Made by a program: the position numbers and the translations under genes. A DNA stretch of 49,754 nucleotides, from positions 1 to 49,754 of the forward strand of contig NZ_JANIBK010000016.1 in the NCBI RefSeq assembly GCF_024505165.1, read 5' to 3'. Position 1 is the first letter of the stretch, and each line of letters starts with the position of its first letter. This stretch comes from Methylomonas rivi. GTDB taxonomy: Bacteria; Pseudomonadota; Gammaproteobacteria; Methylococcales; Methylomonadaceae. The notes beneath the pieces are model-generated. The model was given only the letters and a program-made list of their open reading frames with translations. It made no database searches and was not told the origin of the DNA. This document shows positions 7,042 to 49,754 of the stretch, piece by piece.

Positions 7042-9201
7042 TTAGTGACAAACTACGGAAAAGGTTACTCCAGAGGGGGCACTGTTGTACCCGTACAGGC
7101 TGATATAGTACTTCACATTGCCGTTTGTCATATTACAGGTCTCAACATTACTAGACGACTCCGACACGCAGGTCTTGGACGAATAGCTGGGCCAACCACC
7201 GATTTTCACGTAAAGATCGGCATCCGGCGTTCCCCCCGATGATGTAATGGTGGGATTGTTGCATGTGACGGTTCCAATCTGTTTCATTACATTTCGGGTG
7301 GCGGATAGGTTCGATTGCGGCCAAGCGGTGCAATTAACACCGGGACAACTGCCGCCACCATCGGCCGAGCAGTCGCTCGCGCAATGTGCATTGGTCTCGA
7401 TACCGTTGCACACGGTATCCCCACAGCTCGTTCCGAAACTCTGCAAGAAAAGATTGGGAGCCAAGTTGCCAGCCGGGCCTAAATAGCCTGTTAGTTTACC
7501 GCTGGCAGCGGCGCTGAGAATTGCGGTTTTGACCTCGGGTACGGTGGCGCTCGGGTTTTGCCCGCGATACAACGCAGCCACCCCCGCAGTGAGCGGTGAG
7601 GCGAAAGAGGTCCCGTCATCAGTCGTGAAGGCGGTGTTGGAAGTATTTGTCGCGAACCTTACATTTGTACCCGGAGCCCAAATATCCACTGCGGCACCCC
7701 AGTTCGAGTAGTCAGCGACCGAATCGGCCTGAGAGGTAGCTCCAACCACGAAGGCCGCAGGGGATGAGCCGGGGGAAGTTTTCGCAGCGTCCTGCATATT
7801 GTTCCCTGCGGCGACCGACACAAAGATTCCGGCATCGACGCATGCGGCTATGGAATTGTCCTCGGTGGCGTAGACAGCGTCTTCTCCGATGCTGAAATTG
7901 ATTATGGAAATGTTCGAGCCATTGTTCGCTAAAACCCAGTTAAAACCCGCAACTTGGTCGGACAGGAGGCCGTAGCCTGAATTTGGCATTGTTCGAACGG
8001 TGTGCAGGATAGCTGCCTTCGCCACACCGGCAGTGGCCCCACCAGAGAGGCTGAGCGTCCCTGTTCCGTGTGTACCGCTCTTCCCGCTCGTGCAGGCGTC
8101 CCCATATGTTCCTTGGCTAGTAGATGCACAGGCATCGAATCTCTCCAAGGTCAACCCGGTCACAGCTCGGTAACCGTAGACCATGATGTAGTAAGTACCC
8201 GTTCCGAAAGAAGACATGTCGCAGGTTTCGGTGTTGCTCGATGTATAAGGGCGGCAATCGTAGTTTGAGGCGGTGGGTGCAGAACCCTTTTTCACGTAGA
8301 GGTCTGCATCACCAGTTCCACCGTAGATTTTCACCATGACCTTGTCTCCAGAGATGATCGCTGGCGAAGGGGTATAGGGAGCCTTACTCCCGATGCTGAC
8401 GCTGGTGCTAAACATTTTAGCTCCCTCAACACATCCCCCCGACATACCACCCTGGATGTCCGGGCTGTTGGCAGCGCCGCATTGCATCCGGCCGGCAAAT
8501 TCAGTGTGCGTGGAAAGAGCGCCTTGGTCGAGGTTGTAAATGTGAACACCTGCACCGGTCATGGTGGTCGCGAAGGAATTGTTCAGGGTCGGGCTAGCTT
8601 GATCAATTCGATCCAGAGCCCATCCGGGGTTTGTGTACACGGTGTTGACGTGGACATAAGCGTCCTGTTCCACCAATAATACACGAGGATCCTTAACCAG
8701 GGCCGCCGCTTCCTCGTGGGACATCTGAGCCGAGAAACCCCGAATGGCGGCATTAAAGACGTGGCCCAACTTGACGGTCTTGAGCTGGTTCTCCTCGACG
8801 ACCATGCGCGCGATGTTCTTCGCGCGATCCATATTGAGGATCAGATTCTGGCCTTTAGCCACCACCATATCGTCCTTAAACTGGACGATGTACGAATCCG
8901 GGACTGCATTCTGGTGGACGATGATCCCGAAGGAGTCAAATTCAGGTATAGCCGAGCTAGTATTAGCATCTTTCCGAGAAGAGGCTGTTGTCAGCTCCTT
9001 TTCAGAATCCGGGATCATGGGAATGACCATATTGGTTTTGCTATCTGCCGGAGCAGGTACCGCTGTCGACTCTATTTCAGATGCCGAATCCATAGCGAGC
9101 AGATGCGTCCCATCGACTTTGCAACTTGAAAGTAATCCGCCTGACAGAATCATCAAGGCTGCCGATACACCGCGCCTACTTATAGCCAATATCTTTTTCA
9201 C
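7042..9201 (-). CDS. Lipoprotein subtilisin-like S8 protease with two PPC domains, one inside the catalytic domain
   Basis: Predicted secreted, lipid-anchored serine protease of the proteinase K-like S8 family. GTG 9201 is chosen as start because it is preceded by AAAGGAGAGG; the frame extends to 9264, but without a better site. The N-terminus has a lipobox (LLSSC near residue 29). Next come an I9-type propeptide (PDSYIVQFKDDMVV) and the catalytic residues D225 (NLDQG), H378 (HGTG) and S532 (GTSFASP). The Asp-His distance is 153 residues against about 30 in proteinase K. The extra segment (about 260-360) is a pre-peptidase C-terminal (PPC) domain with DADLYVKKGSAPT, YDCRPY and ETC. A Cys-rich linker and a second PPC domain (DADLYVKIGGWPS, ETC) close the protein. 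The usual DTG is DQG here. It is downstream of two other accessory genes on the same strand. Confidence 0.9.
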   Translation of the reverse strand: MKKILAISRRGVSAALMILSGGLLSSCKVDGTHLLAMDSASEIESTAVPAPADSKTNMVIPMIPDSEKELTTASSRKDANTSSAIPEFDSFGIIVHQNAVPDSYIVQFKDDMVVAKGQNLILNMDRAKNIARMVVEENQLKTVKLGHVFNAAIRGFSAQMSHEEAAALVKDPRVLLVEQDAYVHVNTVYTNPGWALDRIDQASPTLNNSFATTMTGAGVHIYNLDQGALSTHTEFAGRMQCGAANSPDIQGGMSGGCVEGAKMFSTSVSIGSKAPYTPSPAIISGDKVMVKIYGGTGDADLYVKKGSAPTASNYDCRPYTSSNTETCDMSSFGTGTYYIMVYGYRAVTGLTLERFDACASTSQGTYGDACTSGKSGTHGTGTLSLSGGATAGVAKAAILHTVRTMPNSGYGLLSDQVAGFNWVLANNGSNISIINFSIGEDAVYATEDNSIAACVDAGIFVSVAAGNNMQDAAKTSPGSSPAAFVVGATSQADSVADYSNWGAAVDIWAPGTNVRFATNTSNTAFTTDDGTSFASPLTAGVAALYRGQNPSATVPEVKTAILSAAASGKLTGYLGPAGNLAPNLFLQSFGTSCGDTVCNGIETNAHCASDCSADGGGSCPGVNCTAWPQSNLSATRNVMKQIGTVTCNNPTITSSGGTPDADLYVKIGGWPSYSSKTCVSESSSNVETCNMTNGNVKYYISLYGYNSAPSGVTFSVVCH

Positions 9202-9390
9202 AAGCCTCTCCTTTACAACTAAAATCTTGAAAGTAGACAGTAACCATTCGGTGACAATTTGCAAAACGAATGGTGTTTTCTTGCATGTAAGTTAAATAGT
9301 GTTTAAGTCATTGATTTTTCAAAAGGCCCTGAACTTAAGTCGACGCTATCGAGACGTATGCAAAATGGCTAAGTTTCAGCTTGAGTCGGA

Positions 9391-9804
9391 TTACTTTTTT
9401 TTGACGTACAACGTTACTGCGTAATCTCCGGATGAAATCGATACGCCGTCGATTCTGGGCGGGTTTAACGCGATCAATTTTAGCTCGTGCCCCTTCAAGG
9501 CTATTTCTTTCGGTTTATCCTCGGTATTCAAGAGCACTGTTTTATTTTGTCCAGCTATCTCAATGACTTCTAATTCGGCTTTGCCGTTACCCGCCCATAC
9601 ACAAACAGCATTAACAGGGCAGCGTGAATCTTCGAGAACAGCCTTAAATTTGATAACGAGTCCTTCGTCTTCAATCGTTACCGTTTGACCTACTCTCAGA
9701 GAAAATTCTGTATCCAAACTAACTTTGCTTGCTTGTGCCGAGGCAGCACCGATCCAGATAAAGAAAACGAAGAAAGTAAGGTAGCTATCAATCAACCGGT
9801 GCAT
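9391..9804 (-). CDS. Small secreted protein of unknown function with SRCP...C motif
   Basis: A 137-residue exported protein. A signal peptide is clear: basic start, hydrophobic stretch FFVFFIWIG, cleavage after AASA. ATG 9804 has an AAGGGCG Shine-Dalgarno. The mature part is predicted all-beta and holds a motif EDSRCPVNAVCVWAGNGKAE with two cysteines likely to form a disulfide. I recall similar SRCP/C-W-G sequences in uncharacterised exported proteins, but do not know their function. It lies between the subtilase and M4 protease genes on the same strand, so a role as inhibitor, chaperone or stabiliser of these proteases is possible; this is inference from position only. Confidence 0.8.
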   Translation of the reverse strand: MHRLIDSYLTFFVFFIWIGAASAQASKVSLDTEFSLRVGQTVTIEDEGLVIKFKAVLEDSRCPVNAVCVWAGNGKAELEVIEIAGQNKTVLLNTEDKPKEIALKGHELKLIALNPPRIDGVSISSGDYAVTLYVKKK

Positions 9805-9879
9805 AGTCGCCCTTAAAAACTGACATGATTAACTGCCAAGGCATTAAAGGGTTAGCTTTGTCATGTCACAAATTGTGTA

Positions 9880-9916
9880 GAAAACCCGAAAGGGCGAATG
9901 AAAGCGCCCCTTCGGG
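9880..9916 (-). terminator. Intrinsic terminator of the M4 protease gene
   Basis: Just downstream of the M4 stop (9930, minus strand) arms at 9905-9916 and 9885-9896 form a 12-bp stem (CCCGAAGGGGCG with CGCCCTTTCGGG, one imperfect pair) around an 8-nt loop. On the minus strand the stem is followed by GTTTTC at 9884-9879. This is the layout of a Rho-independent terminator and would separate M4 transcription from the downstream small secreted protein gene. Confidence 0.75.
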
Positions 9917-9929
9917 AAATAGTCCGCTA

Positions 9930-12900
9930 TTAATGGATTAAGGTAAGGTTATAAGGCACAGTTGTGCTGTAAGCACCACCAAAAGCAACTACCTTGATGT
10001 AATAGCTGACAATCGAGGCCGAGGTGTTTTTGTAACTCACTGACTCGGTTGAACCCACGTTGGCGCTGGTTCTTAGTCTGCTGCCGGAACTATTCATCAA
10101 GTAAAGATCGTAATCCTTTGCCGGCCCCTTCATATTCACCGTGAGGCTTTGACCGGCAGCAAGATTGATCTTGAAGTAGTCTTGGTCGGCAGAATTGCCG
10201 ATATAGCCTATGATCTTTGTGACTGTGGCGCTGATAGTATTGGCTGTGCGAATTGTGCCATTGTTCTCAACCTCGTCGTAGGTAGTGGAGGTCGCCCCGC
10301 CATTATTGATCGCAAAAGTCACAGTAGTGGAGGTGCCGATATTGCCGGCGGCATCGAAGGCTTTACCCATCAGCAAGTGATTGCCGTCGTCCAACGTCAG
10401 AGAATCCAGAACCATGCTGTAAGACACAGTCGTATCCGCGCCTTTAAGATTGTTGTCGACATAGAACTCCACTTTAGTGACGCCAACATTGTCCGTGGCG
10501 GTGGCATTGAAGGTGATATGCCCGCTAGAGCCGCTCTCACTAACAGAAATGACCGGCGATTCTTCGTCAATAATTGTATTGTCGACCATAAAGGTCACGG
10601 GGGATGACACGCCTAAGTTGCCAGTCGCGTCATACGCTTTTGCTACCAGCGTATGGCTGCCCTTGGTGAGCGTGGTGCTGTCCAGCTCAATGCTATAAGG
10701 CGCGATCTGATCAGTTCCTATAGATTTATTATCGACAAAAAACTCTACTTTAGTGACGCCAACATTATCGGTAGCGACGGCGGATAACGTAATGGTACCG
10801 CTAGAACCACTCTCGCTGGCGCTGACAGTGGGGGCTTTATCGTCAATTTCGTTACCGCCATCGGTTACGTTGAGATTGACCTTGTCCAGGATAAATCCGG
10901 TGGCGAGCGCCGAATCCTCGGCTCCCAAGAAATAGACTTGGATGGTTTGCCCTTTATAGGCGGCCAAATCATGGCTATAAATCTGATAACCGCTGGCTGC
11001 GTTCAAATTACTGTGAGTGGCCAGTGTTTTAAGAATAGTCCCTGAACTGCTGCGGATCTGCACGGCAAGGGTATCGCGAACCGAAGTTTTGCTGGTCTCC
11101 TGGGTTTCGATATGTAGGGCATAGCTCAATGTTGTCGAGGATACGTTGGCTGGAATATTGACCGACTGATAAAGAGCGACGCTCATTTGTGAGCCGGTAC
11201 CGCAAAACTTGGCCATCTTGATGCCGTCGTAAGGGGTTTGGCGCAAAATGGCGCCGATCTGCATACCGGTCGTATTCGACCAGCCCACGCCATAACCTTT
11301 TTCAAAGCTACCATTACGTATCAATTGTCCATTGGCAATCGTAAAGGTCATGGTGGCATTAGTGTATTGCCCCGTAGTATCGGTGGCTTTGGCAACCAAC
11401 GTGTGACTGCCGTCATCCTGCATGACGGAATCATAGGTTACTGAGTAAGGCGATGCGGTTTTAGTGCCCACCAAGGCGCCATCCAGCAGAAACTCAACTT
11501 TCACGACCCCTTTATCATCAGTGGCAGTGGCATTAAAGGTCAGGATGCCTTTTTGGCCGATTTCACTCACGGTGACGGATGGCGGCGTATCGGCGCCAGA
11601 CCAGGCACTGCCTACATTGATCGCCGCGAAGGCATTCCATACCGCGATTTCTTCTGGCCCCGAAACAGCGAATAGATCACGCACCGCCTGAATATTGGCA
11701 ACTCGGGCACCCAAGTAGTCTGTAGAGGAAGTCATGTAAGTGGTTAAGGCGCGATACCAAATTTTGGCTGCCTTGTCGTTACCAATGCCTTTCATGCCTT
11801 GCGGCAAATAAGAACTTGCTGTTTCACCGCTAGTGGTGGCGCCTTGACTCAGAAAATAAAAGGCGCGATTCATGGGGCCGGAACTGTAATGTACATCCAG
11901 GTTTTGTAACGTTGGGCTCCAGGCATCGGCGCTATTGCCATCCTTGCTGGGCTTGTACAGGAAGCGCATTTTTAACGGATAGGCTGCGGTTGTGATCTGT
12001 TCACCGTGCGTCCAGTTTCCGCCAGTGTCGGGGATGATATTGCCTTTGCCATTGGCGCCCCGCGCGTAAAATTCGGTCATTGTGCCTATGATGTCGGAAT
12101 TGGCTTCGTTCAGGCCGCCGGATTCCTTGTTGTAAATCAGATTGGCCGACGTAGAACAAACCCCATGCGAAAATTCATGGGCAGCGACATCGATTGCCGT
12201 CAGTGTCTGCAGTTTGGTGCCGTCGCCGTAAGTGATGCACATGCAATAGTCGGAATAGAAGGCGTTATCGTAAGCGTTGTCGTAATGTACGCGGGCATAG
12301 GTTGGGCTGCCCAGTCCATCAATACCACTACGTCCGAAAACGTTTTTATACATATCCCAGGTGGCTTGTATGCCAAAAGCAGCATCTACCGCGGCTGTCT
12401 GGCCATTGTCGGATGCGGTGGATTCAGGTTCTTCCTTGAAATTGTTGCCGTCGCCCCAGATATTATCGGAGTCCTTATAGAGCGTACCGGTGCCTGAAGT
12501 GGAATGGTCAAGATTATAAACCACGTTGCCGCCGCTGGCCGGTCTGGTCAAATCCCTTAACTCAAATCCGCTAGCCAAGCTATTGGTGTTTAGACTCACC
12601 GTGCCACTGTATTGGCTTTTGCCGGTGCCTAAGGCATTATCGGTACGAAGACTATCCCATTTTTCGATGATCGCGCCGGTGTGGGCATTCACCAGATAAT
12701 CCGTGTGTCGTGTGTCACCCGGTGATTCCAGCTCGGTATGGACATAATAGGCCAACAGGTAACCCTTCACTTCGCTAATAAAGTCTTCAGCGTTCAGTTT
12801 GTTTTCGGCAACAAGGGTCTTGCGCGGTAATACCTGTTTAGTTGTTTCGGGATAGACCACGAGCTCGGTCAGCGGTTTAGTGATGAAATCAGCGCGAGGA

Positions 12901-13283
12901 GCGATATCCTTTTTAACGACAGCCAGTACGTCGGTAACGGAAAGTTTCGGCTCGGTATCGACTTGAATGTCTTGCTTAAGCGCAAAAGTGGTGGGGGGAC
13001 GTTCTATCTGGTTTGGTTGTGTATGAGTAATGACTTCCCCTCCCCAGATGCGTATACCACGGTAGAGCTGTTGGAAGCGGACATGAGTTTGCCCCAGTTT
13101 GTCCTGCTGAAGATTTTGAAATTGAAAGGAATGATTCTCATCGAGACCTAACGTCTCGCGCATACCGGTCAGTCGTTGTTGCGATTGTAACATCAACTCA
13201 TTATTGCTAGGATTTGTAGCGGACGAGGGTGACGAGGTTACTAGCAATAATGCGAAGATAAGGACGAATTGACTATGTTTCAT
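9930..13283 (-). CDS. Secreted M4 (thermolysin-family) metalloprotease with Ig-like and PPC domains
   Basis: Large extracellular zinc endopeptidase, 1117 residues. ATG 13283 has a GAGGAG Shine-Dalgarno, and residues 1-22 are a signal peptide. An FTP/PepSY-type propeptide (about 30-215) follows. The catalytic domain has HEFSH (H369, E370, H373), the third zinc ligand E393 in GGLNEANSD, and the transition-state histidine H465 in DVHYSSGPMN. The C-terminal half has three Ig-like (Big_3-type) repeats near 570-650, 810-895 and 903-988. The last two are nearly identical (ESGSSG and ATDNVGVTKVEF). Between the first two is a jelly-roll-like segment (about 655-800). A PPC domain ends the protein (DEVENNGTI, DQDYFKINL, DYDLYLMNSSG). 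All catalytic residues are present. The product is probably exported by the Sec pathway, then released or surface-bound by its C-terminal modules. Confidence 0.93.
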   Translation of the reverse strand: MKHSQFVLIFALLLVTSSPSSATNPSNNELMLQSQQRLTGMRETLGLDENHSFQFQNLQQDKLGQTHVRFQQLYRGIRIWGGEVITHTQPNQIERPPTTFALKQDIQVDTEPKLSVTDVLAVVKKDIAPRADFITKPLTELVVYPETTKQVLPRKTLVAENKLNAEDFISEVKGYLLAYYVHTELESPGDTRHTDYLVNAHTGAIIEKWDSLRTDNALGTGKSQYSGTVSLNTNSLASGFELRDLTRPASGGNVVYNLDHSTSGTGTLYKDSDNIWGDGNNFKEEPESTASDNGQTAAVDAAFGIQATWDMYKNVFGRSGIDGLGSPTYARVHYDNAYDNAFYSDYCMCITYGDGTKLQTLTAIDVAAHEFSHGVCSTSANLIYNKESGGLNEANSDIIGTMTEFYARGANGKGNIIPDTGGNWTHGEQITTAAYPLKMRFLYKPSKDGNSADAWSPTLQNLDVHYSSGPMNRAFYFLSQGATTSGETASSYLPQGMKGIGNDKAAKIWYRALTTYMTSSTDYLGARVANIQAVRDLFAVSGPEEIAVWNAFAAINVGSAWSGADTPPSVTVSEIGQKGILTFNATATDDKGVVKVEFLLDGALVGTKTASPYSVTYDSVMQDDGSHTLVAKATDTTGQYTNATMTFTIANGQLIRNGSFEKGYGVGWSNTTGMQIGAILRQTPYDGIKMAKFCGTGSQMSVALYQSVNIPANVSSTTLSYALHIETQETSKTSVRDTLAVQIRSSSGTILKTLATHSNLNAASGYQIYSHDLAAYKGQTIQVYFLGAEDSALATGFILDKVNLNVTDGGNEIDDKAPTVSASESGSSGTITLSAVATDNVGVTKVEFFVDNKSIGTDQIAPYSIELDSTTLTKGSHTLVAKAYDATGNLGVSSPVTFMVDNTIIDEESPVISVSESGSSGHITFNATATDNVGVTKVEFYVDNNLKGADTTVSYSMVLDSLTLDDGNHLLMGKAFDAAGNIGTSTTVTFAINNGGATSTTYDEVENNGTIRTANTISATVTKIIGYIGNSADQDYFKINLAAGQSLTVNMKGPAKDYDLYLMNSSGSRLRTSANVGSTESVSYKNTSASIVSYYIKVVAFGGAYSTTVPYNLTLIH
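10455..10820 (-). repeat. Internal duplication of an Ig-like module in the M4 gene
   Basis: Two stretches about 280 bp apart (around 10465-10545 and 10745-10825) share nearly the same DNA, including ACTTTAGTGACGCCAACATT in both. They encode matching TDNVGVTKVEF segments of consecutive Ig-like repeats. Similarity at DNA level implies recent duplication or gene conversion within the gene. Confidence 0.7.
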
Positions 13284-32442: not shown

Positions 32443-33831
32443 TTACGTCAGATTATTGACTTTACTAAAACCCAACATCTCTGTATCTTCAAAAACATTT
32501 ATGTCTGAAACAAGCCCCACACAAGTAAAAATATTATAGATTATTGAACCACAAAATACATATGGAACAGATTGATATGTTTCTCGATCTGAGCAATCCG
32601 CGTCTCGCAAAGCTGCCTGATGAATTAACATACTATCTTCAGTGGGTTCTTTTGGAAAAACTATTTCACAATCCATTGTTAATGGTAGAGAATATGATTC
32701 AATTCTCTCAATAAATCCTTTTGAATCCACATAGGGCGAAGTGTGAAATATATTTATCAATGTAAAACATGAGTAGACATCACGATTATCCCCAATAGCC
32801 TTAAGCATATGAAGATAACAATTGGTTAACGCGGCCAAAACTTGAGGAAAAATCGAATAATCAACTATATTCATATTTTCATAGCGCCTTTCATATGCAA
32901 TGCGACAAAATTGTTTTGCATATATATTTTTTTCATGAGTTTCTTGAAATCCAGAAAAATCATATAAATTTAACGGTACATCAAAGCGCACAACTCCATC
33001 GTGCCACCATCGAAATGTTAAAGTCGCTAGACTAGGGTCATTATTCGCAATCTGTCTAGCAACAAAACCATTCACCGCACTGTGAACAGCTGTCATTGGC
33101 GCATGTACACCAACAACACTGTTATCTGAATTTGTAACGATTCGAACAAATTCATCAAAGCTTAACTTTTTTTCCGGCGATAGTTGCCATTCGCTTGGCT
33201 TAAAGTAAATATGCACCCATGGTTGACTGGATTGGCTTTTTGGTAACTCAGGAATCTGAGTCAATCTTTTAATCGTTTTCTCACGATGTTCATTACCCCT
33301 TTTCCACAGTTCATCAAGAATATATCTGTCTGTTTCTTCTTTTGGTTTTGACTGATCAGCTAAACGACGATAGATTCTTCCAGATGAATGAATGTGGGGC
33401 GTATTGAAACTCCTTGGAATACCGATGACAATAATCGACTTCCCTTCAACTAGACCTATTTCTTCTAGGGGACCATCAATGACCTTTTCTTCATATAAGA
33501 TTTCCGGGTTTACATGAGAAGACGCAGCCTCTCTTATTTCTAATGTAATTTTTTCTACATTACTTTTTTCTACACCCAGAAATTCATCTGCAGATCGAGA
33601 TCCATCATTCTTCTCACTTACTCCAATTATTAACCATCCACCATATTGATTAGCGAAAGCGCACAAATGTTTTCCGTAATCAACAATTTTTAAACCTTGA
33701 ACCTTATAATCAATATACCAGCCTTCGGATATTTTTCTCAAAAGAGACAAGTCGCTTCCATCAATATCTTCCAATGCCTTATTGAATGGATAAAAAGAAT
33801 AATTAAGCAAACAATATTCTCCAACTAACAA
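32443..33831 (-). CDS. AlbA_2/Schlafen-type putative DNA-binding protein
   Basis: 462-codon frame, clearly more AT-rich than its neighbours. The N-terminal third has the AlbA_2 (divergent AAA-4/Schlafen) pattern: acidic/aromatic GWYIDYKVQG, then GKHLCAFANQYGGWLIIGVSE, and later IVIGIPRSFNTPHIHSSGRIYRRLADQS. The C-terminal 300 residues match nothing I know. Such domains occur in transcription regulators and in phage-defence or mobile-element genes. The frame opens at TTG 33831; TTG 33810 (8 nt after GGAG) is a better start, so the true N-terminus is uncertain. It is enclosed by inverted repeat copies and separates lysC from alaS, all signs of insertion. No partner gene on its strand. Confidence 0.75.
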   Translation of the reverse strand: MLVGEYCLLNYSFYPFNKALEDIDGSDLSLLRKISEGWYIDYKVQGLKIVDYGKHLCAFANQYGGWLIIGVSEKNDGSRSADEFLGVEKSNVEKITLEIREAASSHVNPEILYEEKVIDGPLEEIGLVEGKSIIVIGIPRSFNTPHIHSSGRIYRRLADQSKPKEETDRYILDELWKRGNEHREKTIKRLTQIPELPKSQSSQPWVHIYFKPSEWQLSPEKKLSFDEFVRIVTNSDNSVVGVHAPMTAVHSAVNGFVARQIANNDPSLATLTFRWWHDGVVRFDVPLNLYDFSGFQETHEKNIYAKQFCRIAYERRYENMNIVDYSIFPQVLAALTNCYLHMLKAIGDNRDVYSCFTLINIFHTSPYVDSKGFIERIESYSLPLTMDCEIVFPKEPTEDSMLIHQAALRDADCSDRETYQSVPYVFCGSIIYNIFTCVGLVSDINVFEDTEMLGFSKVNNLT

Positions 33832-40960: not shown

Positions 40961-42571
40961 TTAATGCTTCCGCGTGGACTGCAGTTTTGGCACGGCCGCC
41001 AGCAAGGTTTTGGTGTAAGCATGCCGGGGCTGGGTTAAAACCTGTTCGACCAGTCCTTGTTCGACGATTTTACCCCGGTACATCACCGCCACTTCGTCGG
41101 CCATTTCCGCCACCACGCCCAGATTGTGGGTGATCAGCAAAAAGCTCAGGCTTTGCTGTTTTTGCAGTTCTTTCAGCAAGGCGATGATTTGCGCCTGTAC
41201 CGAAACATCCAATGCGCTGGTCGGCTCGTCGCAAATAATCAGTTTGGGTTCCACGGCCAGCGCCCGGGCAATACAGATACGCTGCCTCTGGCCGCCGGAA
41301 AATTCGTGCGGATAACGCAAGGCGGCATCAGCAGGTAAATCCACTTGCTGCAGCAATTCAGCCACCCGGCTTTGCATCAGCGGACGAGTGATGTCCGATC
41401 GCAATGCACGCAAGCCTTCGGCGATAATGTCGCCCACCAGCATTCTGGGATTCATGGCCGCGAACGGGTCTTGAAACACGATCTGCATGGCCGCCCGTTG
41501 TTTCCGCAAGGCTTCGCCCTGCAATTGCGTCAAATCGATGTCATCAAACAACACCCGCCCGGCATGGGCCGGAATCAGATTCAACAAGCCCTTGCCCATG
41601 CTGGTTTTACCGCAGCCGGATTCTCCGACCAGCGCCAGCGTGGTGCCGGCATGCAGTTCAAAATCCACCCCATCCACGGCTTTGACATGACCTACCACGC
41701 GTTTGAAAATGCCTTTGCGGATCGGGTAATAGACCTTGAAATCCTCCACCTTCAACAACGGCGGCTTGTTTTGGGCGACTCGATCCAGGCAGCTTTCCAT
41801 CTTCGGCAAAGCCGCCAGTAATTTCAAACTGTAAGGGTGCTTGGCTTGCCGAAAAAATTCGCCGGTGGCGGCGGTTTCGACTATCTTGCCTTTTTGCATC
41901 ACCGCGATGCGATCGGCGATATTGGATACCAGAGCCAAATCGTGACTGATCAGCCACAAGGCCATGCCGGTTTGCTGCTGCAGATTTTTCAGCAAGTCCA
42001 GAATCTGCGCCTGTATGGTCACATCCAGCGCCGTGGTCGGCTCATCCGCGATCAGCAAATCCGGTTTGCCGGCCAGCGCAATCGCAATCATCACCCGCTG
42101 CCGTTGGCCGCCGGACAATTGATGCGGATATTCGTTGATGCGGCGCTCGGGTTCCGGAATTTCCACCTGTTTGATCAGTTCCAATACCCGTTGCCTGACC
42201 TCGTCCTTGGCTAGTTGAAAATGGATATTCAATACTTCGGCAACCTGCTCGCCGATCGTCATGACCGGATTCAGCGACGACATCGGGTCCTGGAAAATCA
42301 AACCGATGCGGCGACCGCGCAGCCTGCAAAAATCGATTTCCGGAATTTTCAGCAAATCCCGGTCTTGTAAAACCATGCCTGCTGCCTGCATCTGCGCGTT
42401 ATTCGGCAACAACCGCAGCACCGACAACGCGGTAATGGATTTACCGGAACCGGATTCACCGACCAAAGCAAAGGTTTCGCCGGAACGGATTTCGAAGCTG
42501 ATGTCGTCGACGACTTTATTTTGGAAGCTAAAGCTAACCGATAAATGTTCGACTGATAACAAGGGCTTCAT
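40961..42571 (-). CDS. yejF: Peptide ABC transporter, fused dual ATPase (YejF-type)
   Basis: 536-residue protein with two ABC ATPase domains. Each has Walker A (GESGSGKS near 39-46; GESGCGKTS in the second), the signature LSGGQRQRV or FSGGQRQRI, and Walker B ([24 protein letters not shown]). Powers uptake through YejB/YejE; relatives import oligopeptides or microcin C. ATG 42571 directly follows the stop of the inserted DUF4276 gene (TAGATG). Here it is separated from yejE by a 1.8-kb gene pair. Confidence 0.95.
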
Positions 42572-43276
42572 CTAGGCAGTTCCTAAATCGGTTAATTGCT
42601 GATACCAATCAGCAAAATGTTTGCACTCTGCACATAATTTATCGATACCGATGTTTTGAATCGCCAGCGGGCCATGATAGGTCTTACGGTAAGATTTTTT
42701 GGAGCTGGCAAAAATTTGTACTGACTCCAAAGCCTTCTTGATGCGTTCGGAAGGTTTAGTTTCATAGCTATTATTAATGTGCTCAGGTGTTTCAAAGTCG
42801 CTACGATCAGCTTGTAACTTAATTAATGCTTTTGACCATTCTGAATGAATATCCGTTAATTTTGAAATGTCTGAGAATAGTAACCCTTCAAACTCATAAG
42901 GCTGAATGTAAGGCACAAAGCGATTTAAATATGTATTATTTGATTGAGCAATATCATCTTTCAGCGCTTGTTCGAGAAACTGAGTTCTTTGATAAACATC
43001 GATTATCGCCTGACTTTTCTCATAACCAGGAAAGCGTTTTTCCAGTCCATACAGATCAAAAAAAGTGGTGATAATAGTAGCATTTTCTTCTTTCAGGCAA
43101 TTAAGGATAAACAGCTTTACCCGATCATAATTTAAAGCCCCTCCTCTATGACCTCGTGAAGTTGTAACACCGCGTCCAGTCAAAAAAATCTGCTGATGAG
43201 CCAGTTTTGGTGCCAAAACATTTCGTACAAAAGTTTCTTCAGTTGGCCCTTCGCAGACAACATAAACGCGCATCAT
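42572..43276 (-). CDS. DUF4276 protein, TOPRIM-like; partner of AAA ATPase
   Basis: About 234 residues. ATG 43276 overlaps the AAA stop by one base (TAATG), with a second ATG at 43273. It opens with MRVYVVCEGPTEETFVRNVL, where E8 (CEGPTEE) matches the first acidic residue of TOPRIM-like folds, and TIITTFFDLYGL supplies D73 in the position of the second acidic motif. The C-terminal half (PYIQPYEFEGLLFSD, ETKPSERIKKAL, YRKTYHGPLAIQNIG) is typical of DUF4276. Such proteins pair with an AAA15/21-type ATPase in modules with the same plan as AbiL or PARIS defence systems; a nuclease or effector role is inferred. Lower GC than the flanking yej genes. Confidence 0.85.
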   Translation of the reverse strand: MMRVYVVCEGPTEETFVRNVLAPKLAHQQIFLTGRGVTTSRGHRGGALNYDRVKLFILNCLKEENATIITTFFDLYGLEKRFPGYEKSQAIIDVYQRTQFLEQALKDDIAQSNNTYLNRFVPYIQPYEFEGLLFSDISKLTDIHSEWSKALIKLQADRSDFETPEHINNSYETKPSERIKKALESVQIFASSKKSYRKTYHGPLAIQNIGIDKLCAECKHFADWYQQLTDLGTA

Positions 43277-44361
43277 TAGGCTGGCCTCCCGCCAATAATG
43301 TTTTGCTTCCACAAATCTCCTAAGCTGTAATCCATTAGCCAATCCGTTAATTGGGATTCATCGAGCCGTCGAAAAGTAGATGCATTATTGACTCGATCCA
43401 CCACAATTAAATCGTTGACTGAGAAATAATTGATTAACTCGACCGACTGTGTAGAGATGATTAACTGAGTACTTTCCGAAGCAAGCTTTATCAAATCAGC
43501 TAAAACACCCAAAGCATAAGGATGTAAACCTAACTCCGGCTCATCAATCAAGATGGTGTCGGCCATCAATAACTTAGGTTGTAATAGCAAAGTTGCAAGA
43601 CAAATAAACCTCAAAGTACCATCTGACAATACATGTCCTTTGAAAGGAGTATCTGGGTTGCCGATTTCTTTCCATTCCAGTTGAATTGATTCTTCGCCTT
43701 CACGAATAATAAAATCATCGAAGAATGGAGCAACTAACCGTATTGTTTTAATAATTAGAGAATAATTTTGTGGAAACTTAAGTTTTAGTCTATTTAAAAA
43801 TGCCGCCAAATTTGAGGCATCCGGCTTGAGTCTTAAGTTATCTGACACTGAGTGAATTTGCTTAACTAATGCCGTATCACTAGTGTCATGAAAATGATAG
43901 ACGCGCCAACTTTCTATAGCAGGTTTAATGTACTGAGCATAATGATGCTTGGATTCTTTTAGCAACGATTCATCATTGCCAGAGTTGATGATTGTTGATG
44001 AAGGGTAAGGCGCAATCACACTACCGTCATAACAAAGCTCTTCTCTAACAAATACAAGTCTATTATCTAGAGTGGGCCTCAGAGAAAACTCGTAGCTATT
44101 ATGGCCAAAATGAAATGCCAAGGACATTTGAGTAGTTTTTTTTCGCCCATAATATAATAATAAATCCGGGCCACCGTTCATTTGAACATATGCTTTAAGA
44201 TTTCTATCATATATGTTGGCCAAGAACTTAAATGCAGAAATAAAATTACTTTTACCTGCGCCATTAGCACCTAACAAAATATTTATTTCGTTTAATTCAA
44301 GGCCTTTCAAGCTGTGAATTGACTTGTAGCCGCTAATACTAAGTTTTTTTAATCTAGACAT
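43276..44361 (-). CDS. AAA15/21-type ABC ATPase of a putative defence pair
   Basis: 361 residues from ATG 44361 (MSRLKKLSISGYKSI); a TTG at 44367 is the other option. SMC/Rad50-like single-chain ATPase: Walker A GANGAGKS (31-38), an N-terminal GYKSI..LKGLEL typical of OLD-like ATPases, signature region HVLSDGTLRFICLATLL, Walker B TILIDEPELGLHP (D273, E274) and the switch-H region QLIISTQSVELINYF. All ATP-binding elements are present. It is followed by the overlapping DUF4276 gene and lies 14 bp after yejE. AT-rich and probably acquired. Likely senses something during infection and controls the DUF4276 protein (inference). Confidence 0.88.
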   Translation of the reverse strand: MSRLKKLSISGYKSIHSLKGLELNEINILLGANGAGKSNFISAFKFLANIYDRNLKAYVQMNGGPDLLLYYGRKKTTQMSLAFHFGHNSYEFSLRPTLDNRLVFVREELCYDGSVIAPYPSSTIINSGNDESLLKESKHHYAQYIKPAIESWRVYHFHDTSDTALVKQIHSVSDNLRLKPDASNLAAFLNRLKLKFPQNYSLIIKTIRLVAPFFDDFIIREGEESIQLEWKEIGNPDTPFKGHVLSDGTLRFICLATLLLQPKLLMADTILIDEPELGLHPYALGVLADLIKLASESTQLIISTQSVELINYFSVNDLIVVDRVNNASTFRRLDESQLTDWLMDYSLGDLWKQNIIGGRPA

Positions 44362-44375
44362 AATCAATTCATCGT

Positions 44376-45719
44376 TTAACTTGCTTGAGCTCGTCTCGGA
44401 TCAAACGCATCCCTGACGCTATCGGCAAACAAATTCGCCGCCAGCACCAGCGCGAACATGAAGACGAAGGCCGCCGTCAGCGACCACCACACCACCGGCT
44501 CTCTGGCCATTTCCAGGCGGGCGCTGTTGATCATGTTGCCCCAGCTGTGTGTGGTGGGGTCGACGCCGATGTTGATGTAGGACAGCACCGCTTCGGCCAG
44601 TACCAGTGAACTGAAATCCAGCACCACACTGATCAGCACGATGTGCATGACGTTGGGCAGGATGTGGCGGAACAGGATCATGGCCGGTTTGACACCCAGG
44701 GCTTGCGCGGCCAACACGTATTCCATTTCCCGCAGCTTTAGGGTTTCGGCGCGTAGCAAGCGACATAGGCCGGTCCAGCTGGTCACGCCCAAAATCAGGC
44801 ATAGAAACAGCAAGCGCATGTCGGCGCGCACCAGCAGATTGTTGAAATTTTCCGGGTGGTTGGTCATGTAGACCTGCACCATCAGAATCGAAGCGGCTAT
44901 CAATAACACACTGGGAATGGAATTGAGCGTGGTGTAGATGAATTGAATCACATCGTCGACCCAGCCCTTGAAAAACCCGGCCATGATACCGAATACGATG
45001 GCTAGCGGCAGCATGACCAAGGTGGTCAGGGAACCGATCACCAGGCCGGTGCGTATGCTTTTCAGGGTTTGATAAAACACGTCCTCGCCGACCTTATCGG
45101 TACCCAGCACGTGGTAATACGCCGACAGGGAAAACAAGGTATAACAGCCGCTCACCACCAAGAACAAGGCGGCCCATACGGCCTTGCTGCTGGCGCTGCG
45201 CCATAAAACCCGGCGCCGTTCGTGTTGGTCGCCCCAAGCCAGCAATAACACCATCAGCATCAGGCCCGCACCCCTGCTGAATCCGCTAAGCGTTTTATCG
45301 AAAACATCGCCCGCCCATTCCGTTTCGGGATCGGCCAGATGCGCGCCGCCGTATTGCAGGCGCGGATAATCCCAGCGGGTGGAGCCGTCGTCTAGGGCTA
45401 GCGTTTCCTTGGCATAGCCATGGACTGCAAACGGCGCGGAATAGGTTTTCTCGCCGTGTTTGCGCATGGTGTCGCAAGCCACGTCCAGCAAGCTGACGGC
45501 TTCGTTACCGCGACTGTCGCCGTCTTTAAAATGTATCGAATCGGCCAAACCGATCAGCGCGAAACATAGCAGCAAGGTCAAAGAGGCCATTGCAACCGGA
45601 CTGGCGGCGATTTTTTTTAACGGCCTGCGCATGTGCTGTTGCCGGCCTAAATACCAGGCAAACACCACGCTGGTTACCACCAACAGATAAATCAACGCGT
45701 CTGTCCACAGCACGATCAT
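44376..45719 (-). CDS. yejE: Peptide ABC transporter permease (YejE-type)
   Basis: 447 residues, inner-membrane permease. The C-terminal part has the binding-protein-dependent transport motif ALGVKPAMILFRHILPN and six helices. The N-terminal ~190 residues include two additional hydrophobic stretches (8-24; 43-62) and a periplasmic region with KTYSAPFAVHGYAKETLAL. E. coli YejE is about 340 residues, so this one is roughly 100 longer. The ATG overlaps the yejB stop (TAATG), so they are translationally coupled. Confidence 0.93.
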   Translation of the reverse strand: MIVLWTDALIYLLVVTSVVFAWYLGRQQHMRRPLKKIAASPVAMASLTLLLCFALIGLADSIHFKDGDSRGNEAVSLLDVACDTMRKHGEKTYSAPFAVHGYAKETLALDDGSTRWDYPRLQYGGAHLADPETEWAGDVFDKTLSGFSRGAGLMLMVLLLAWGDQHERRRVLWRSASSKAVWAALFLVVSGCYTLFSLSAYYHVLGTDKVGEDVFYQTLKSIRTGLVIGSLTTLVMLPLAIVFGIMAGFFKGWVDDVIQFIYTTLNSIPSVLLIAASILMVQVYMTNHPENFNNLLVRADMRLLFLCLILGVTSWTGLCRLLRAETLKLREMEYVLAAQALGVKPAMILFRHILPNVMHIVLISVVLDFSSLVLAEAVLSYINIGVDPTTHSWGNMINSARLEMAREPVVWWSLTAAFVFMFALVLAANLFADSVRDAFDPRRAQAS

Positions 45720-46696
45720 TAGCTTAACCTCACGCGCGGGTCGACCAGGGTATAGGAAATATCGGTCAGCAGCAGGCCGGCGATATAGAGCACCGAGCCC
45801 AAAAACACCATGGAGCGGACGATGGCGAAATCCTGCCGATTAATGGCATCGATGGTGTAACTGCCCAGGCCGGGGATGCTGAAAAACGATTCCATAATCA
45901 GACTACCCATAAACAACAACGGCAATACCACCACCACACCGGTCAGAATTGGGATCATGGCGTTTTTCAGCACGTGCTTGAACAATACCTGGGTTTCGGT
46001 AAGGCCTTTGGCGCGGGCGGTACGCACGTAATCTTTTTCCACTTCTTCCAGAAAAAGCGTCCGGTACCAGCGCGCGCCGGAACCGATGCCGGCCACCACG
46101 CTGATAATCACCGGCAGAATTAAAAACTTGAGCGCCGCCAATCCGCTGTCGTAACCGGAAATCGGCACCAGCTTCAGCAGTTTGCCGATCAGGAACTGCC
46201 CGCCGATGATGTAAAACAACGACGATACCGACATCAGCATCACGCACAACACGCTGCTGCCCAGTTCGACATAAGTATTGCGGAACAGCACCATCAACAG
46301 CGCCAGCGTGATATTCACCAGCAAGCCGACGATCAAGGACGGCAAGGCCAGTGCCAGACTGGGCCACATGCGCTGGCGAATGTCGGTACCAATGTTGCGG
46401 CCGCTGTCGGAAATGCCGAAATCGAACAAAAACAGGTTCACCGATTTTTGATAGAAAATGGTGTCGGTCAGTTGTTTGCCGCCCGCCTGTCCGCCATTCC
46501 ACAAAAGCGGCAAATCGTAACCGTGCTGATGCTTCCAGTTTTGAATCGCTTGTTCGGTGACGTGCTTTTGCCCCAGCTGCATGCGGGCCATATCGTCCGG
46601 ACTATTGACCACGAAAAACAGCACAAAAGTCAGCACATTGACCGCCATCAACAGCGGCAAGGCGTAAAGAAAGCGGCGAATGATATACGTGATCAT
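45719..46696 (-). CDS. yejB: Peptide ABC transporter permease (YejB-type)
   Basis: 325-residue permease with an N-terminal helix (MITYIIRRFLYALPLLMAVNVLTF) and the cytoplasmic coupling motif RTARAKGLTETQVLFKHVLKNAMIP. Works as a heterodimer with YejE. ATG 46696. It lies 49 bp after the PIN toxin gene, and the yejA gene is upstream of that, so the toxin-antitoxin pair interrupts yejA-yejB. Confidence 0.95.
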   Translation of the reverse strand: MITYIIRRFLYALPLLMAVNVLTFVLFFVVNSPDDMARMQLGQKHVTEQAIQNWKHQHGYDLPLLWNGGQAGGKQLTDTIFYQKSVNLFLFDFGISDSGRNIGTDIRQRMWPSLALALPSLIVGLLVNITLALLMVLFRNTYVELGSSVLCVMLMSVSSLFYIIGGQFLIGKLLKLVPISGYDSGLAALKFLILPVIISVVAGIGSGARWYRTLFLEEVEKDYVRTARAKGLTETQVLFKHVLKNAMIPILTGVVVVLPLLFMGSLIMESFFSIPGLGSYTIDAINRQDFAIVRSMVFLGSVLYIAGLLLTDISYTLVDPRVRLS

Positions 46697-46745: not shown

Positions 46746-47126
46746 TTATTTTTCAATGAGCAAAACATCCTCGGTATAGACTTGAAACGCCTTGTCGTAG
46801 GTTACTATCCGCAAGCTTTCGCATCGCGCTTGCGCAATGAGTAAACGATCGAACGGATCTTTGTGGTGCGGGGCTAATTGTTGAATCGCTTGCGCATGAA
46901 ACGGCGTCATGTTCAGCCATTGAAAGCCCTGCGCCTGTATGTCTTCCGCGAAAGCCGGGGTGGGCAACGGCAATTTTCCCAGTCCATTTTTAATCGCCAT
47001 TTCCCAAATCGAAACCGCGCTGACGAAAGCGCCTTCTTGCTGAATTTTTTCGACCAGCCACAAGGGCTCGATCCGCCCCATCAACCAATCGTAAACAATG
47101 CAGGTATCAAGCAACAGACGCATCAT
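46746..47126 (-). CDS. PIN-domain toxin (VapC-like)
   Basis: About 126 residues from ATG 47126 (a second ATG at 47123). The open frame extends to 47213 but that part overlaps the antitoxin. Acidic active-site residues of the PIN RNase are visible: LLLDTCIVYDW (first Asp), VSAVSIWEMAIK (Glu), HHKDPFDRLLIAQA (Asp) and IVTYDKAF (Asp). Probably cleaves RNA when free of antitoxin. Overlaps the antitoxin gene by 20 nt, the usual coupled arrangement. Confidence 0.93.
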   Translation of the reverse strand: MMRLLLDTCIVYDWLMGRIEPLWLVEKIQQEGAFVSAVSIWEMAIKNGLGKLPLPTPAFAEDIQAQGFQWLNMTPFHAQAIQQLAPHHKDPFDRLLIAQARCESLRIVTYDKAFQVYTEDVLLIEK

Positions 47127-47358
47127 CCGTTCCATTGAACAAATCGGCGATTTCGGCATTGGTTTCGGCGGAATCCCAATCGGTAGAATACACCACCCGC
47201 TGTAACCAAGCACCGGGCGGCGAAACTTTGGGCGCGCTGTATTTAACGAGCTTGGCGACCGGTACCCCGTTACGGGCGATAATCACCTCTTCGTCTCGCT
47301 CGGCGGCAACCACCAGACTGGACAAATTGTTTTTGGCTTCCAAAATATTAACTTGCAT
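47107..47358 (-). CDS. Phd/YefM-family antitoxin
   Basis: 83 residues. N-terminal Phd fold MQVNILEAKNNLSSLVVAAE then GEEV-like RDEEVIIARNGVPVAKLVKY, the usual DNA-binding part; the acidic C-terminal tail (DSAETNAEIADLFNGTDD) binds the PIN toxin. ATG 47358. Upstream palindromes form a likely autoregulatory operator. The unit sits between yejA (stop 47458) and yejB. Confidence 0.93.
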   Translation of the reverse strand: MQVNILEAKNNLSSLVVAAERDEEVIIARNGVPVAKLVKYSAPKVSPPGAWLQRVVYSTDWDSAETNAEIADLFNGTDDASVA

Positions 47359-47374
47359 CGCATGCCCCTACAGC

Positions 47375-47402
47375 TTGGCTAATATTAGCCAAAATATGGC
47401 TA
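47375..47402 (-). promoter_or_regulatory. Palindromic operator of the antitoxin gene
   Basis: A perfect 18-bp palindrome TTGGCTAATATTAGCCAA at 47375-47392 overlaps a second inverted pair TAGCCA (47386-47391) and TGGCTA (47397-47402). So three TGGCTA-type half-sites lie 17-44 bp upstream of the antitoxin ATG, the expected position for Phd autorepression. The -10 probably falls inside the AT-rich centre. Confidence 0.75.
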
Positions 47403-47457
47403 TCAGCCGGTTTTGTCAATCGATAACACACGTCCTTTAACACCAAGGCAACCCTTA

Positions 47458-49605
47458 TCAAGTTTCGAATTGCCTGCGGCGATAAGCCTTAACCGCCGGA
47501 TAAATCGCCAAGCCCAAGGCGGCAAAAATCGCCAACAACGGCCAGAACTCGGCATGATTCCATTCCCGGCGTTTTTGTTCGCGCAAGCCGGTATCAATGC
47601 GGCTGTATTTCAAGCGGTTGTTGATCATGCGAGCCGGCTTGAGGTTTTTATACCAGCTATGCAGCAAGGCGAAATCCTTGGGGAAATAGCCGAACAGCCA
47701 AGGCGCGTCCCGGCGCAAGATGCTTTGCATGCGGTCGATGATGATTTGCCGTTCCGGACCGTTGTCCATGTTGCGCATTTGCTCGAACAGGCGGTCGAAT
47801 TCCGGGTTGGCGTAATTGCCGGCGTTCTCGCCGCCCTGCTTGACCTTGGAATTGGGCCCATACAACAGAAAGAAGAAGTTTTCCGGGTCGGGATAATCGG
47901 CATTCCAGCCCCAAACGAAAATCTGCGCCGCGCCGCTGCGCATTTTTTCCTGAAAGCGGTTGTAATCGGTGCCGCGTATCACCAGCTGAATGCCGAGCTT
48001 TTCGAATTGCTTGCGGTACCAGTTCATCAAAGCCTTGTCGTCGCTGCCGGTCGCCGTGGTATCAAAATACAGCAGCAAGGCTTCGCCGGTTTTCGGGTCT
48101 ATACCGTTCGGGTAACCGGCCTCCGCCAGCAATTGCTTGGCTTTTTCGATGGATTTACGCTGCGGTTTGCCGTTTTGCCAGTCGTAAACCACCGGATTGA
48201 TGCCGGCCTCGCCGTCCTGATAGCCGAAGATGCCCGGCGGCAACGCGCCTTGCGCGGCCACGCCGCGGCCGTTGGCGAAAATGGCGATAAATTCTTCATA
48301 ATCCACCGCAATGGAAATGGCTTGCCGCAGTTTGCGGTTTGCTTCGCTATCGCCGCCTATGACGGGGTCCAGCATATTAAAGCCCATGTAAAACACCGAA
48401 GTGGCCACCGAGGTTTGCAGTTGAATCTGCTTGTCCCGCATCATCGGGGTCAACTGCGGATCGCCGCTGCCTGAAAACTGCACGGCTTGGTCGAAACTAT
48501 CCGAGGCAATGCCGGAGGCGTCGTAATAGCCTTGTAAGAATTTGGCCCAGTACGGAATGGTTTCTTTTTCCAAGGTGTACACCACCTTGTCGACAAACGG
48601 CAGCGGCTTGCCGGCGTCGTTCAACCAACCGGCTTCGCGGTCGCCCGCGTCGCCCTCACTCGGATAAAAGTCCGGGTGGTAATGCGGATTTTTCGCCAGT
48701 ACCATGCGCCGATTGGGATTGTTTTCCTGCAACCAATAGGGCCCGGTGCCGACCGGAAACCAGTCCAGGGTAATGTTTTTGTTTTTCAAACCCGGCTGCG
48801 CATAAAACGCATCGGCTTCCCACGGCATCGGCGCGAAAAACGGCATGGCCAGCCAATATTGAAATTGCGGATATTTGCCTTTGATGCGGATGCGGTATTG
48901 ATTCTCGCTCAAGGCTTGCACGCCGCGCATGGATTGGTTTTTCAGCTCTTGAACCGGAATTGCCGCCGTAGCTTGGGCAAACTCGGCAAAGCCGTCTATA
49001 TACCCGGCCATCAATTCAGCGATAGGCGACTGCGTTTTCGAATAGGCCAGCCGCTTGATCTGGTAAACATAATCTTCGGCCGTTAAGGTTCGGCTTTGCT
49101 GCACCGGCAAGTCCGCCAGTGTATTGATGCTCAACAATTGTTCGTCAGTCAGGGCGTGATACAAATAATCGCCGGATTCGCTTCGGCTGAAAGCCGGATG
49201 CGGTTGGCAAGCAATGCCCGGTTTAATGGTTATCAGATATTCGCTAAACGCAATCGCCGCGTCGACTGCGGTTTCCGGCAATGCGTTACCTTGTGCGTCC
49301 AGGTAGCGAACTACGGGCATTTTGGCAGCTGTTAAAGGTTCCAGTTGATACGGCCGTTTCAAATAATGGTATTGCAACGGCGGTTCGTAAATCTGGCCAA
49401 TAAAGCCGTATTCGTCACTGCTATAGGCTACCGCCGGGTCCAAGTGCTTGGGCCGCTCGGCAAAAGACGAATACAGGATAGCCTGACCGTGGTCGGACTC
49501 GGGATAAGGGTTATTGAGTTGGGAAACGTCGCACGCGGTTAAGATAAAAACCGACAGCAACAGCAGAAGATTGCGAACTTTAGGAACCGACAGATTGCTG
49601 GACAT
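47458..49605 (-). CDS. yejA: Peptide ABC transporter substrate-binding protein (YejA-type, SBP family 5)
   Basis: 715 residues from ATG 49605 (MSSNLSVPK), preceded by AAGG; an ATG at 49635 is less likely. A signal peptide ends in a lipobox LTACD, so it is a lipoprotein, unlike enterobacterial YejA. The SBP_bac_5 body shows RPKHLDPAVAYSSDEY, LTAEDYVYQIKRLA, WFPVGTGPYWLQENNPNRRM, SIAVDYEEFIAIFANGRG and ADYPDPENFFFLLYG. The C-terminus ends with a hydrophobic helix (WPLLAIFAALGLAIYPAV) and basic RRRQ, so it may be anchored at both ends. First gene of the operon; captures oligopeptides for YejBEF. Confidence 0.93.
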   Translation of the reverse strand: MSSNLSVPKVRNLLLLLSVFILTACDVSQLNNPYPESDHGQAILYSSFAERPKHLDPAVAYSSDEYGFIGQIYEPPLQYHYLKRPYQLEPLTAAKMPVVRYLDAQGNALPETAVDAAIAFSEYLITIKPGIACQPHPAFSRSESGDYLYHALTDEQLLSINTLADLPVQQSRTLTAEDYVYQIKRLAYSKTQSPIAELMAGYIDGFAEFAQATAAIPVQELKNQSMRGVQALSENQYRIRIKGKYPQFQYWLAMPFFAPMPWEADAFYAQPGLKNKNITLDWFPVGTGPYWLQENNPNRRMVLAKNPHYHPDFYPSEGDAGDREAGWLNDAGKPLPFVDKVVYTLEKETIPYWAKFLQGYYDASGIASDSFDQAVQFSGSGDPQLTPMMRDKQIQLQTSVATSVFYMGFNMLDPVIGGDSEANRKLRQAISIAVDYEEFIAIFANGRGVAAQGALPPGIFGYQDGEAGINPVVYDWQNGKPQRKSIEKAKQLLAEAGYPNGIDPKTGEALLLYFDTTATGSDDKALMNWYRKQFEKLGIQLVIRGTDYNRFQEKMRSGAAQIFVWGWNADYPDPENFFFLLYGPNSKVKQGGENAGNYANPEFDRLFEQMRNMDNGPERQIIIDRMQSILRRDAPWLFGYFPKDFALLHSWYKNLKPARMINNRLKYSRIDTGLREQKRREWNHAEFWPLLAIFAALGLAIYPAVKAYRRRQFET

Positions 49606-49754
49606 TATGCGAAGGCCTTGGAAACTTACCGGCATTCTAACAACAAGCCATTAAAATAATAAGCGGCAAGAAGAATACAGTAACGAATGCCGCTTGGTTC
49701 AACCAAACTTGCGGCCGCAAACCGCTTCGCCCCCTCGTTCCCACGGAGGACCGC
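49606..49754. other. Right edge, upstream of yejA
   Basis: 149 bp that should hold the yejA promoter. No gene seen; the final 60 bp are GC-rich with no clear open frame. Confidence 0.4.

Follow-up and report, generated by a model that had tools for sequence, protein, structure and literature searches.

Defence genes are usually sought in islands, in prophages and in integrase-linked hotspots. PARIS is a system of the ATPase-plus-effector type, and OLD and GajA are single proteins in which ATPase and TOPRIM domains are fused. The family closest to the genes described here, HEC-01, is one of the Hma-embedded candidates (HEC; PMC12988326), several of which, HEC-06 included, are said in that paper to have shown antiviral activity (PMC12988326, citing the preprint of Payne et al., 2024, 10.1101/2024.01.29.577857); HEC-01 itself appears, as a detection only, in the list of defence systems that PMC12724379 gives for Desulfovibrio piger strains. 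The literature searched yielded neither an activity test of HEC-01 nor a mention of DUF4276. According to PMC10273834, restriction–modification pairs of the PabI family are inserted in the glutamate and histidine operons of Helicobacter and Campylobacter, two systems seem to be rivals for a single operon niche, and post-segregational killing, it is suggested, may impose maintenance of the operon. In Escherichia coli, hotspots between core genes take up defence-carrying mobile elements (PMC10121019); neither 'operon' nor 'yej' was found as a word in the main text of that paper. Among the matches listed for literature on defence genes in operons and on yejABEF, no earlier report of a defence insertion between yejE and yejF was found.

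Here, we analyzed a two-gene cassette of the HEC-01 type lying between yejE-like and yejF-like genes of a Methylomonas rivi contig, in a stretch of 49,754 nucleotides (hereafter the window). Its likeness to described HEC-01 lies in two adjacent genes whose products match HEC-01A and HEC-01B over nearly their full length; whereas HEC-01 is by name Hma-embedded, the present pair sits inside a peptide-importer operon and not in an Hma system or a defence island. With the PabI pairs it shares the form of a two-gene defence unit within an operon, metabolic in their case, and the use of one niche by different systems, but here the systems are ATPase–DUF4276 and IetAS, the bacterial group is another, the operon encodes a transporter and the junctions are fitted to the next start codon. 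As in the E. coli hotspots, fixed positions among core genes carry different defence systems in different genomes; unlike there, the units are two-gene cassettes inside a co-directional operon, and neither an integrase ORF nor a direct repeat was seen. We interpret the pair as a stowaway without its own promoter, lodged at a recurrent hotspot within an operon, rather than as a device dedicated to linking defence with peptide import.

The pair and its host operon

The genes and sites of the operon, all on the minus strand, are as follows.

40961..42571, minus strand: yejF-like ATP-binding gene, downstream flank (ORF, family models)
42572..43276, minus strand: HEC-01B-type DUF4276 protein, 234 aa from the first ATG, second cassette gene (ORF, PADLOC, Pfam)
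43276..44361, minus strand: HEC-01A-type AAA_21 ATPase, 361 aa, first cassette gene (ORF, PADLOC, Pfam)
44362..44375, minus strand: 14-bp spacer from the yejE stop to the ATPase start (junction reading, consensus scan)
44376..45719, minus strand: yejE-like permease gene, upstream flank (ORF, Pfam, family models)
45719..46696, minus strand: yejB-like permease gene (ORF, family models)
46746..47117, minus strand: PIN-domain (VapC-like) toxin gene (Pfam PIN, 49.7 bits)
47107..47358, minus strand: Phd/YefM-type antitoxin gene, paired with the PIN gene (Pfam PhdYeFM, 38.1 bits)
47391..47419, minus strand: promoter-like site TTGACA-17-TATTTT ahead of the antitoxin gene (consensus match only)
47458..49635, minus strand: yejA-like peptide-binding protein gene, longest ORF (ORF, family models)

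An earlier note on this DNA had described an AT-rich ATPase–DUF4276 pair with tight junctions, and in these respects it was accurate. The stop of the ATPase gene and the ATG of the DUF4276 gene overlap by one base (TAATG), 14 bp separate the yejE stop (44376) from the ATPase start, and 0 bp separate the DUF4276 stop from the yejF ATG (42571); the GC content of the insert is 0.375 against 0.567 for yejE. The ATPase, as read from its translation, has an intact Walker A motif, GANGAGKS (residues 31–38), and a Walker B stretch, ILIDEPELGLHP, and is recognized by Pfam as AAA_21 (95 bits, cut-off 27); the partner is DUF4276 at 169.9 bits (cut-off 30.2).

The same note placed the pair among AbiL, PARIS-type or OLD-like defence modules. 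The profile search that it proposed upheld a defence-type family, a different one from those named: the best PADLOC match of the ATPase is HEC-01A (PDLC04175, 481 bits, residues 2–360 on profile positions 4–362 of 363), and the partner matches HEC-01B (PDLC04188, 254 bits) over nearly its full length, so that a full-length HEC-01A ATPase is adjoined by a HEC-01B DUF4276 protein. Six PADLOC models, all of them HEC-01B, and in Pfam only DUF4276, match the partner at E ≤ 1. The ATPase shares with those of PARIS (AriA/AriB) and AbiL the broad AAA_21/AAA_15 group, but it is far nearer to HEC-01A (99 bits for PARIS AriA and 85 for AbiLi), and the partner has no AriB or AbiLii match; both assignments were rejected. 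OLD/GajA was set aside as well, the ATPase and its partner being two separate ORFs here and the scores being 60 bits for Old and 53 for GajA. By its profile matches, the pair is thus HEC-01, a known candidate defence family, in an unusual setting.

The TOPRIM-like character that the earlier note gave to the DUF4276 protein found no confirmation. The AlphaFold model of the protein (pLDDT 89.6, pTM 0.87) begins with a beta–alpha–beta unit; Foldseek gave no match to it in the PDB at E ≤ 0.001, nor did the PDB hold credible sequence relatives. Residues invariant across 32 sequences include E8, G9, E12, D73, E127 and E129 (numbered from the second ATG).

The naming of the host genes, as used in the earlier note, is kept here in the weaker form 'yej-like', because the model scores of yejB, yejE and yejF all fall below cut-off: yejF has as its best model the YejF equivalog (600 bits, cut-off 834), and yejB and yejE match several oligopeptide permease models. 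The 14-bp spacer would be too short for a promoter of its own, and one within yejE is possible. A consensus scan found no promoter-like site inside the spacer; it returned 10 sites overall against 7.5 expected, the best of the scanned stretch being that at 47391..47419. The operon carries a second insert, the Phd/YefM–PIN pair at yejA–yejB, which recurs at the same place in another locus (L032, 93–95% identity, the PIN gene at 95%); the PIN gene has no PADLOC match. Other yejA–yejB inserts comprise a BrnT-like/CopG-like pair in L033, below the Pfam cut-offs, and a PIN gene in L060.

The yejE–yejF junction in related genomes

At E ≤ 0.001, 77 of 81 relatives have a homologue of yejE, weak ones counted; within the window's family, 175 of 237 genomes have yejE at E ≤ 1e-120 and 163 of 237 have yejF at E ≤ 1e-180. 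The comparison of yej operons suggested in the earlier note was carried out as a census of 150 yejE places and of the yejF places among the matches listed. In 73 of the 150, a listed yejF shares contig and strand with yejE and is no more than 30 kb away; left out were 53 with yejF elsewhere and 24 with no listed yejF. The gap from match to match is at most 65 bp in 60 of the 73 junctions and exceeds 150 bp in 13. Because relatives most often have yejE and yejF next to each other, the insert is something extra, and more than chance.

Seven of the 13 wide gaps hold defence cassettes: HEC-01 type 1 in three genomes (G000, that of the window, G043 and G165), HEC-01 type 2 in one (G175) and IetAS in three (G014, G015, G026). 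IetAS, listed as a defence system in PMC10855318, resembles the HEC-01 pair in having two genes at this same junction, but its proteins, an AAA ATPase and a subtilase, are unrelated to those of HEC-01; it is a different cassette at the same site. IetS occurs in 7 of 237 family genomes at E ≤ 1e-60, and in 3 of these 7 it is at yejE–yejF. Of the other six wide gaps, five belong to genomes of genus g32 and contain a small ORF (DUF2389 by Pfam in the one copy tested, L079), and the sixth, in G229, has an uncharacterised 829-bp insert. ParD/ParE was considered for this last insert and rejected: Pfam recognizes nothing in its 82-aa ORF at E ≤ 0.001 and the next frame holds a stop. Two further genomes, G004 and G029, both outside the 73, have a type 2 pair after yejE with no listed yejF adjoining. 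All nine cassettes were typed by PADLOC, and each of them ends with a stop codon that overlaps the presumed start of yejF or is at most 3 bp away from it. The G165 cassette begins 263 bp after yejE, apparently behind the g32 small gene. In G004 (L040) the yejF right after the cassette is decayed and another yejF copy is present on contig C38; one stop was seen in the yejF of G029 and one in that of G229. At 17 family loci where yejE is not followed by yejF, no relative of HEC-01 or IetAS was found near yejE, apart from one distant AAA match.

Thus, at the listed places, the junction shows the pattern of an intra-operon hotspot: 60 of 73 are empty and 7 are filled, by three kinds of cassette. 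Counting HEC-01 type 1, HEC-01 type 2 and IetAS as one event each, the minimum number of insertions is three. A weakly supported branch (64/49) of the type 1 tree has the three yejE–yejF copies together on one side; on this weak grouping, a single old type 1 insertion followed by many losses is possible. The partner protein of G004 is 62% identical to that of L181 and 40–44% identical to those of the other measured type 2 loci, which suggests a separate type 2 event in G004.

Two control junctions were examined. Between yejB and yejE, none of 49 measurable loci is interrupted (gaps of −4 to 13 bp). The sample comprised 71 loci (68 fetched, together with L013, L014 and the window), of which 49 have yejB, 24 in the window's family and 25 in other families; in the other 22, yejB is absent from the stretch, three of them (L041, L052, L078) being cut by the contig end or starting inside yejE. 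In the remaining 19, G165 and G175 included, other genes precede yejE. These 19, in which yejE with or without yejF follows unrelated genes (L079–L083, L085, L086 and L088–L091 among them), indicate that splitting or rearrangement of the yej operon is widespread in the family; the host unit in G165 and G175 is yejE–yejF only, and not yejABEF. Between trpB and trpA, none of 110 same-contig pairs in 121 genomes is interrupted (110 of 113 trpB places; in the three left out, trpA is on another contig). Fisher's test of 13/73 against 0/110 gives 3e-6, and without the five g32 small-gene genomes (8/73) 5e-4; both values ignore the relatedness of the genomes and, for that reason, are a guide only.

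The junction might be harmless for any gene, its defence content mirroring only the frequency with which defence genes are transferred. In other families of the order (L053–L078), the yejE–yejF gap measures 828–994 bp in 22 of 26 loci, and 6 of 7 such gaps that were read contain a SerB-like HAD phosphatase-like gene, one of them confirmed as HAD by Pfam; given this gene, the junction may simply tolerate insertion. The g32 small gene and the G229 insert point the same way, as does the variability of yejA–yejB, where 9 of 42 loci have inserts of at least 354 bp. However, all inserts of more than 1 kb among the 73 (7/7) are two-gene defence cassettes, and no such insert was seen at yejB–yejE or trpB–trpA, so that we regard indifferent tolerance as improbable. 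There is good evidence, drawn from comparison of genomes, for a recurrent intra-operon defence site at yejE–yejF.

Other homes of HEC-01 and the probable unit of transfer

DUF4276 (PF14103) was matched in 105 of 237 family genomes at E ≤ 0.001, in 101 of them over the cut-off, and 132 of 237 have no match at that threshold. Scanning named genome contigs for HEC-01B yielded 37 loci. Pairs of type 1 lie after ilvD and before argA (L140, L142, L143), between obgE and proB (L144, L145, L147), after trpC (L139) and elsewhere, more distant type 1 pairs being, by reading, beside type I restriction genes. Type 2 pairs were seen behind cysH (L174) and, at six loci, ahead of a PRTase_2-like gene in an operon of the tellurite type (L175, L177, L178, L180, L181, L186; PRTase_2 confirmed in L175). 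This last position holds one or the other HEC-01 subtype in several genomes, and in L177 (G203) type 2 and type 1 stand in tandem upstream of the PRTase-like gene. A third subtype is placed tightly between prfB and lysS, in L179 (PADLOC 467 and 262 bits) and, by reading, in L189, which belong to G008 and G026, respectively; a related pair is found between sucD and nadE (L184). The names obgE, proB, ilvD, argA, prfB, lysS, sucD, nadE, cysH and trpC were confirmed with NCBIfam in one example each; guaA, ftsH, thrC, hpnC, gshA and the other copies were named by reading.

As raw counts, the upstream neighbour is on the same strand in 40 of 43 HEC-01 loci, within 100 bp in 23 of the 43, and the downstream neighbour is on the same strand in 34 of 42; only 15 of 43 loci are tight on both sides. 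The 43 comprise 32 of the 37 loci of the HEC-01B scan, the window, 8 of 20 further loci, L085 and L040; L158, a near copy of L156, and the partial loci L160, L168, L169 and L171 were left out. These counts come from a simple ORF caller, several loci are near relatives, and one of the three opposite-strand upstream neighbours, that of L136, is spurious.

The distribution bears on the link between peptide import and defence that the earlier note had entertained, in which the cassette would work with the Yej importer, for example by sensing or answering imported antimicrobial peptides. Such a link would fit the tight, coupled junctions and the recurrence of one cassette family at yejE–yejF in several genera. 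Against it, IetAS occupies the same place in three species, HEC-01 also uses obgE–proB, ilvD–argA, prfB–lysS and other operons, many of them unrelated, and 60 of the 73 yejE–yejF junctions are empty. With IetAS and two HEC-01 subtypes at one junction and HEC-01 at many others, a dedicated peptide-import link was rejected, and we consider any functional tie to the importer very improbable.

Comparison of HEC-01 copies (hits longer than 250 bp and, in a second set, the best 45 hits longer than 500 bp) indicates what is shared between sites. In copies from different sites, shared DNA runs approximately from the ATPase ATG to the DUF4276 stop or ends tens of bases short: −3 to +1 of the ORFs for L141/L143 (85%), −8 to −22 for L143/L144 (79%), −1 to −20 in the window copy for window/L142 (69%) and −1 to 0 for L085 at yejE–yejF and L174 at cysH (73%). 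The longest different-site overhang among the pairs listed is 45 bp upstream (L140/L141). In copies from the same site, sharing extends from −51 to +337 for the window and L136 and from −400 to +400 for L144/L145; for L145/L147 it continues into the downstream flank only. The contrast is not uniform: for L140 against L142 and L143 (all at ilvD–argA) and for L175/L178 (both tellurite-type) sharing ends near the ORFs, which may reflect independent landings or spacers that change fast. Among the HEC-01 copies compared, different sites have no promoter, terminator or end repeat in common. Since sequence common to copies at different sites hardly extends past the two ORFs, what is transferred appears to be a pair of bare genes.

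Between yejE and yejF there is no other gene-sized ORF on the same strand, and hence no integrase or transposase ORF, and positions 42400–44500 contain no direct repeats and a single palindrome, inside yejF; a transposon or integrase-borne island was therefore rejected. A short resemblance (ATGAA) following the stop of yejE had raised the idea of a target-site duplication, but the junctions in relatives are varied and do not bear it out. An RNA element was dismissed on finding no Rfam match, and a phage origin on finding no relative in a phage collection or in a scan of viral contigs sensitive to close relatives only. Twelve plasmid records were matched, at no more than 41% identity.

Purifying selection on related copies is shown by codon comparison: dN/dS is 0.11–0.19 in the four pairs of loci with measurable dS. 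With the window copy, dS is saturated in every comparison but that of DUF4276 with L137, where dN/dS is 0.14 at a dS of 2.2.

The cassette could also be a selfish one, which persists mainly because losing it, or its operon, harms the cell, antiviral defence being secondary. Insertion as bare ORFs in many operons is compatible with this, and so are the PabI pairs in operons, for which post-segregational killing has been proposed (PMC10273834). However, with 60 of 73 sites empty and 132 of 237 family genomes without a DUF4276 match, loss seems easy, and the literature searched held no report of addiction for the HEC-01 family; we therefore think selfish maintenance unlikely.

Proposed expression of the cassette and possible exchange at operon junctions

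Our preferred reading, which we hold to be probable, is that a HEC-01 candidate cassette entered a yejABEF-like operon as bare ORFs, at a recurrent landing site, and is expressed from that operon. In related genomes, different defence cassettes occupy yejE–yejF, each fitted to the yejF start codon. The earlier note had also put the pair under the transporter's promoter: the layout, an insertion in a yej-like operon with tight junctions, is as claimed and makes co-transcription of yejE, the cassette and yejF likely, as a prediction. The cassette would be read from an upstream promoter and translated by coupling; with co-directional genes and a 14-bp spacer without room for a promoter, read-through and translational coupling are the simplest reading. 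By analogy with ATPase-plus-effector systems such as PARIS, the ATPase would hold the DUF4276 effector inactive and release it on infection, after which the cell would stop growing or die; an ATPase that restrains the effector until infection would make constant low expression safe.

These observations suggest that ordinary operons can serve defence genes as sites of both landing and expression. The layout implies constant, housekeeping-level expression of potentially lethal effectors, for which control at the protein level would matter. More tentatively, fixed junctions of core operons could, in this group of bacteria, be exchange sockets for promoterless cassettes. One bare pair of ORFs would replace another there by a precise mechanism as yet unrecognised, such as replacement assisted by homology, with selection for translational coupling. 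Defence would then be expressed at the level of housekeeping genes and controlled only at the protein level, scans of islands would miss such cassettes, and operon junctions would be a place to look for new systems. The presence of several subtypes at one junction offers a natural comparison for movement without a known mobile element.

Elsewhere in the window, an AT-rich SLFN_AlbA_2 gene of 462 aa (32443–33831, minus strand), with no PADLOC match, also looks like a foreign insert amid housekeeping genes; it lies between two genes read as alaS and lysC. At 7042–13283 (minus strand), a subtilase with PPC domains adjoins an M4 thermolysin-like protease with Ig-like domains. The genome of the window also holds, on contig C116, a second, distant DUF4276 match (L191, 46 bits) beside an ATPase-like ORF.
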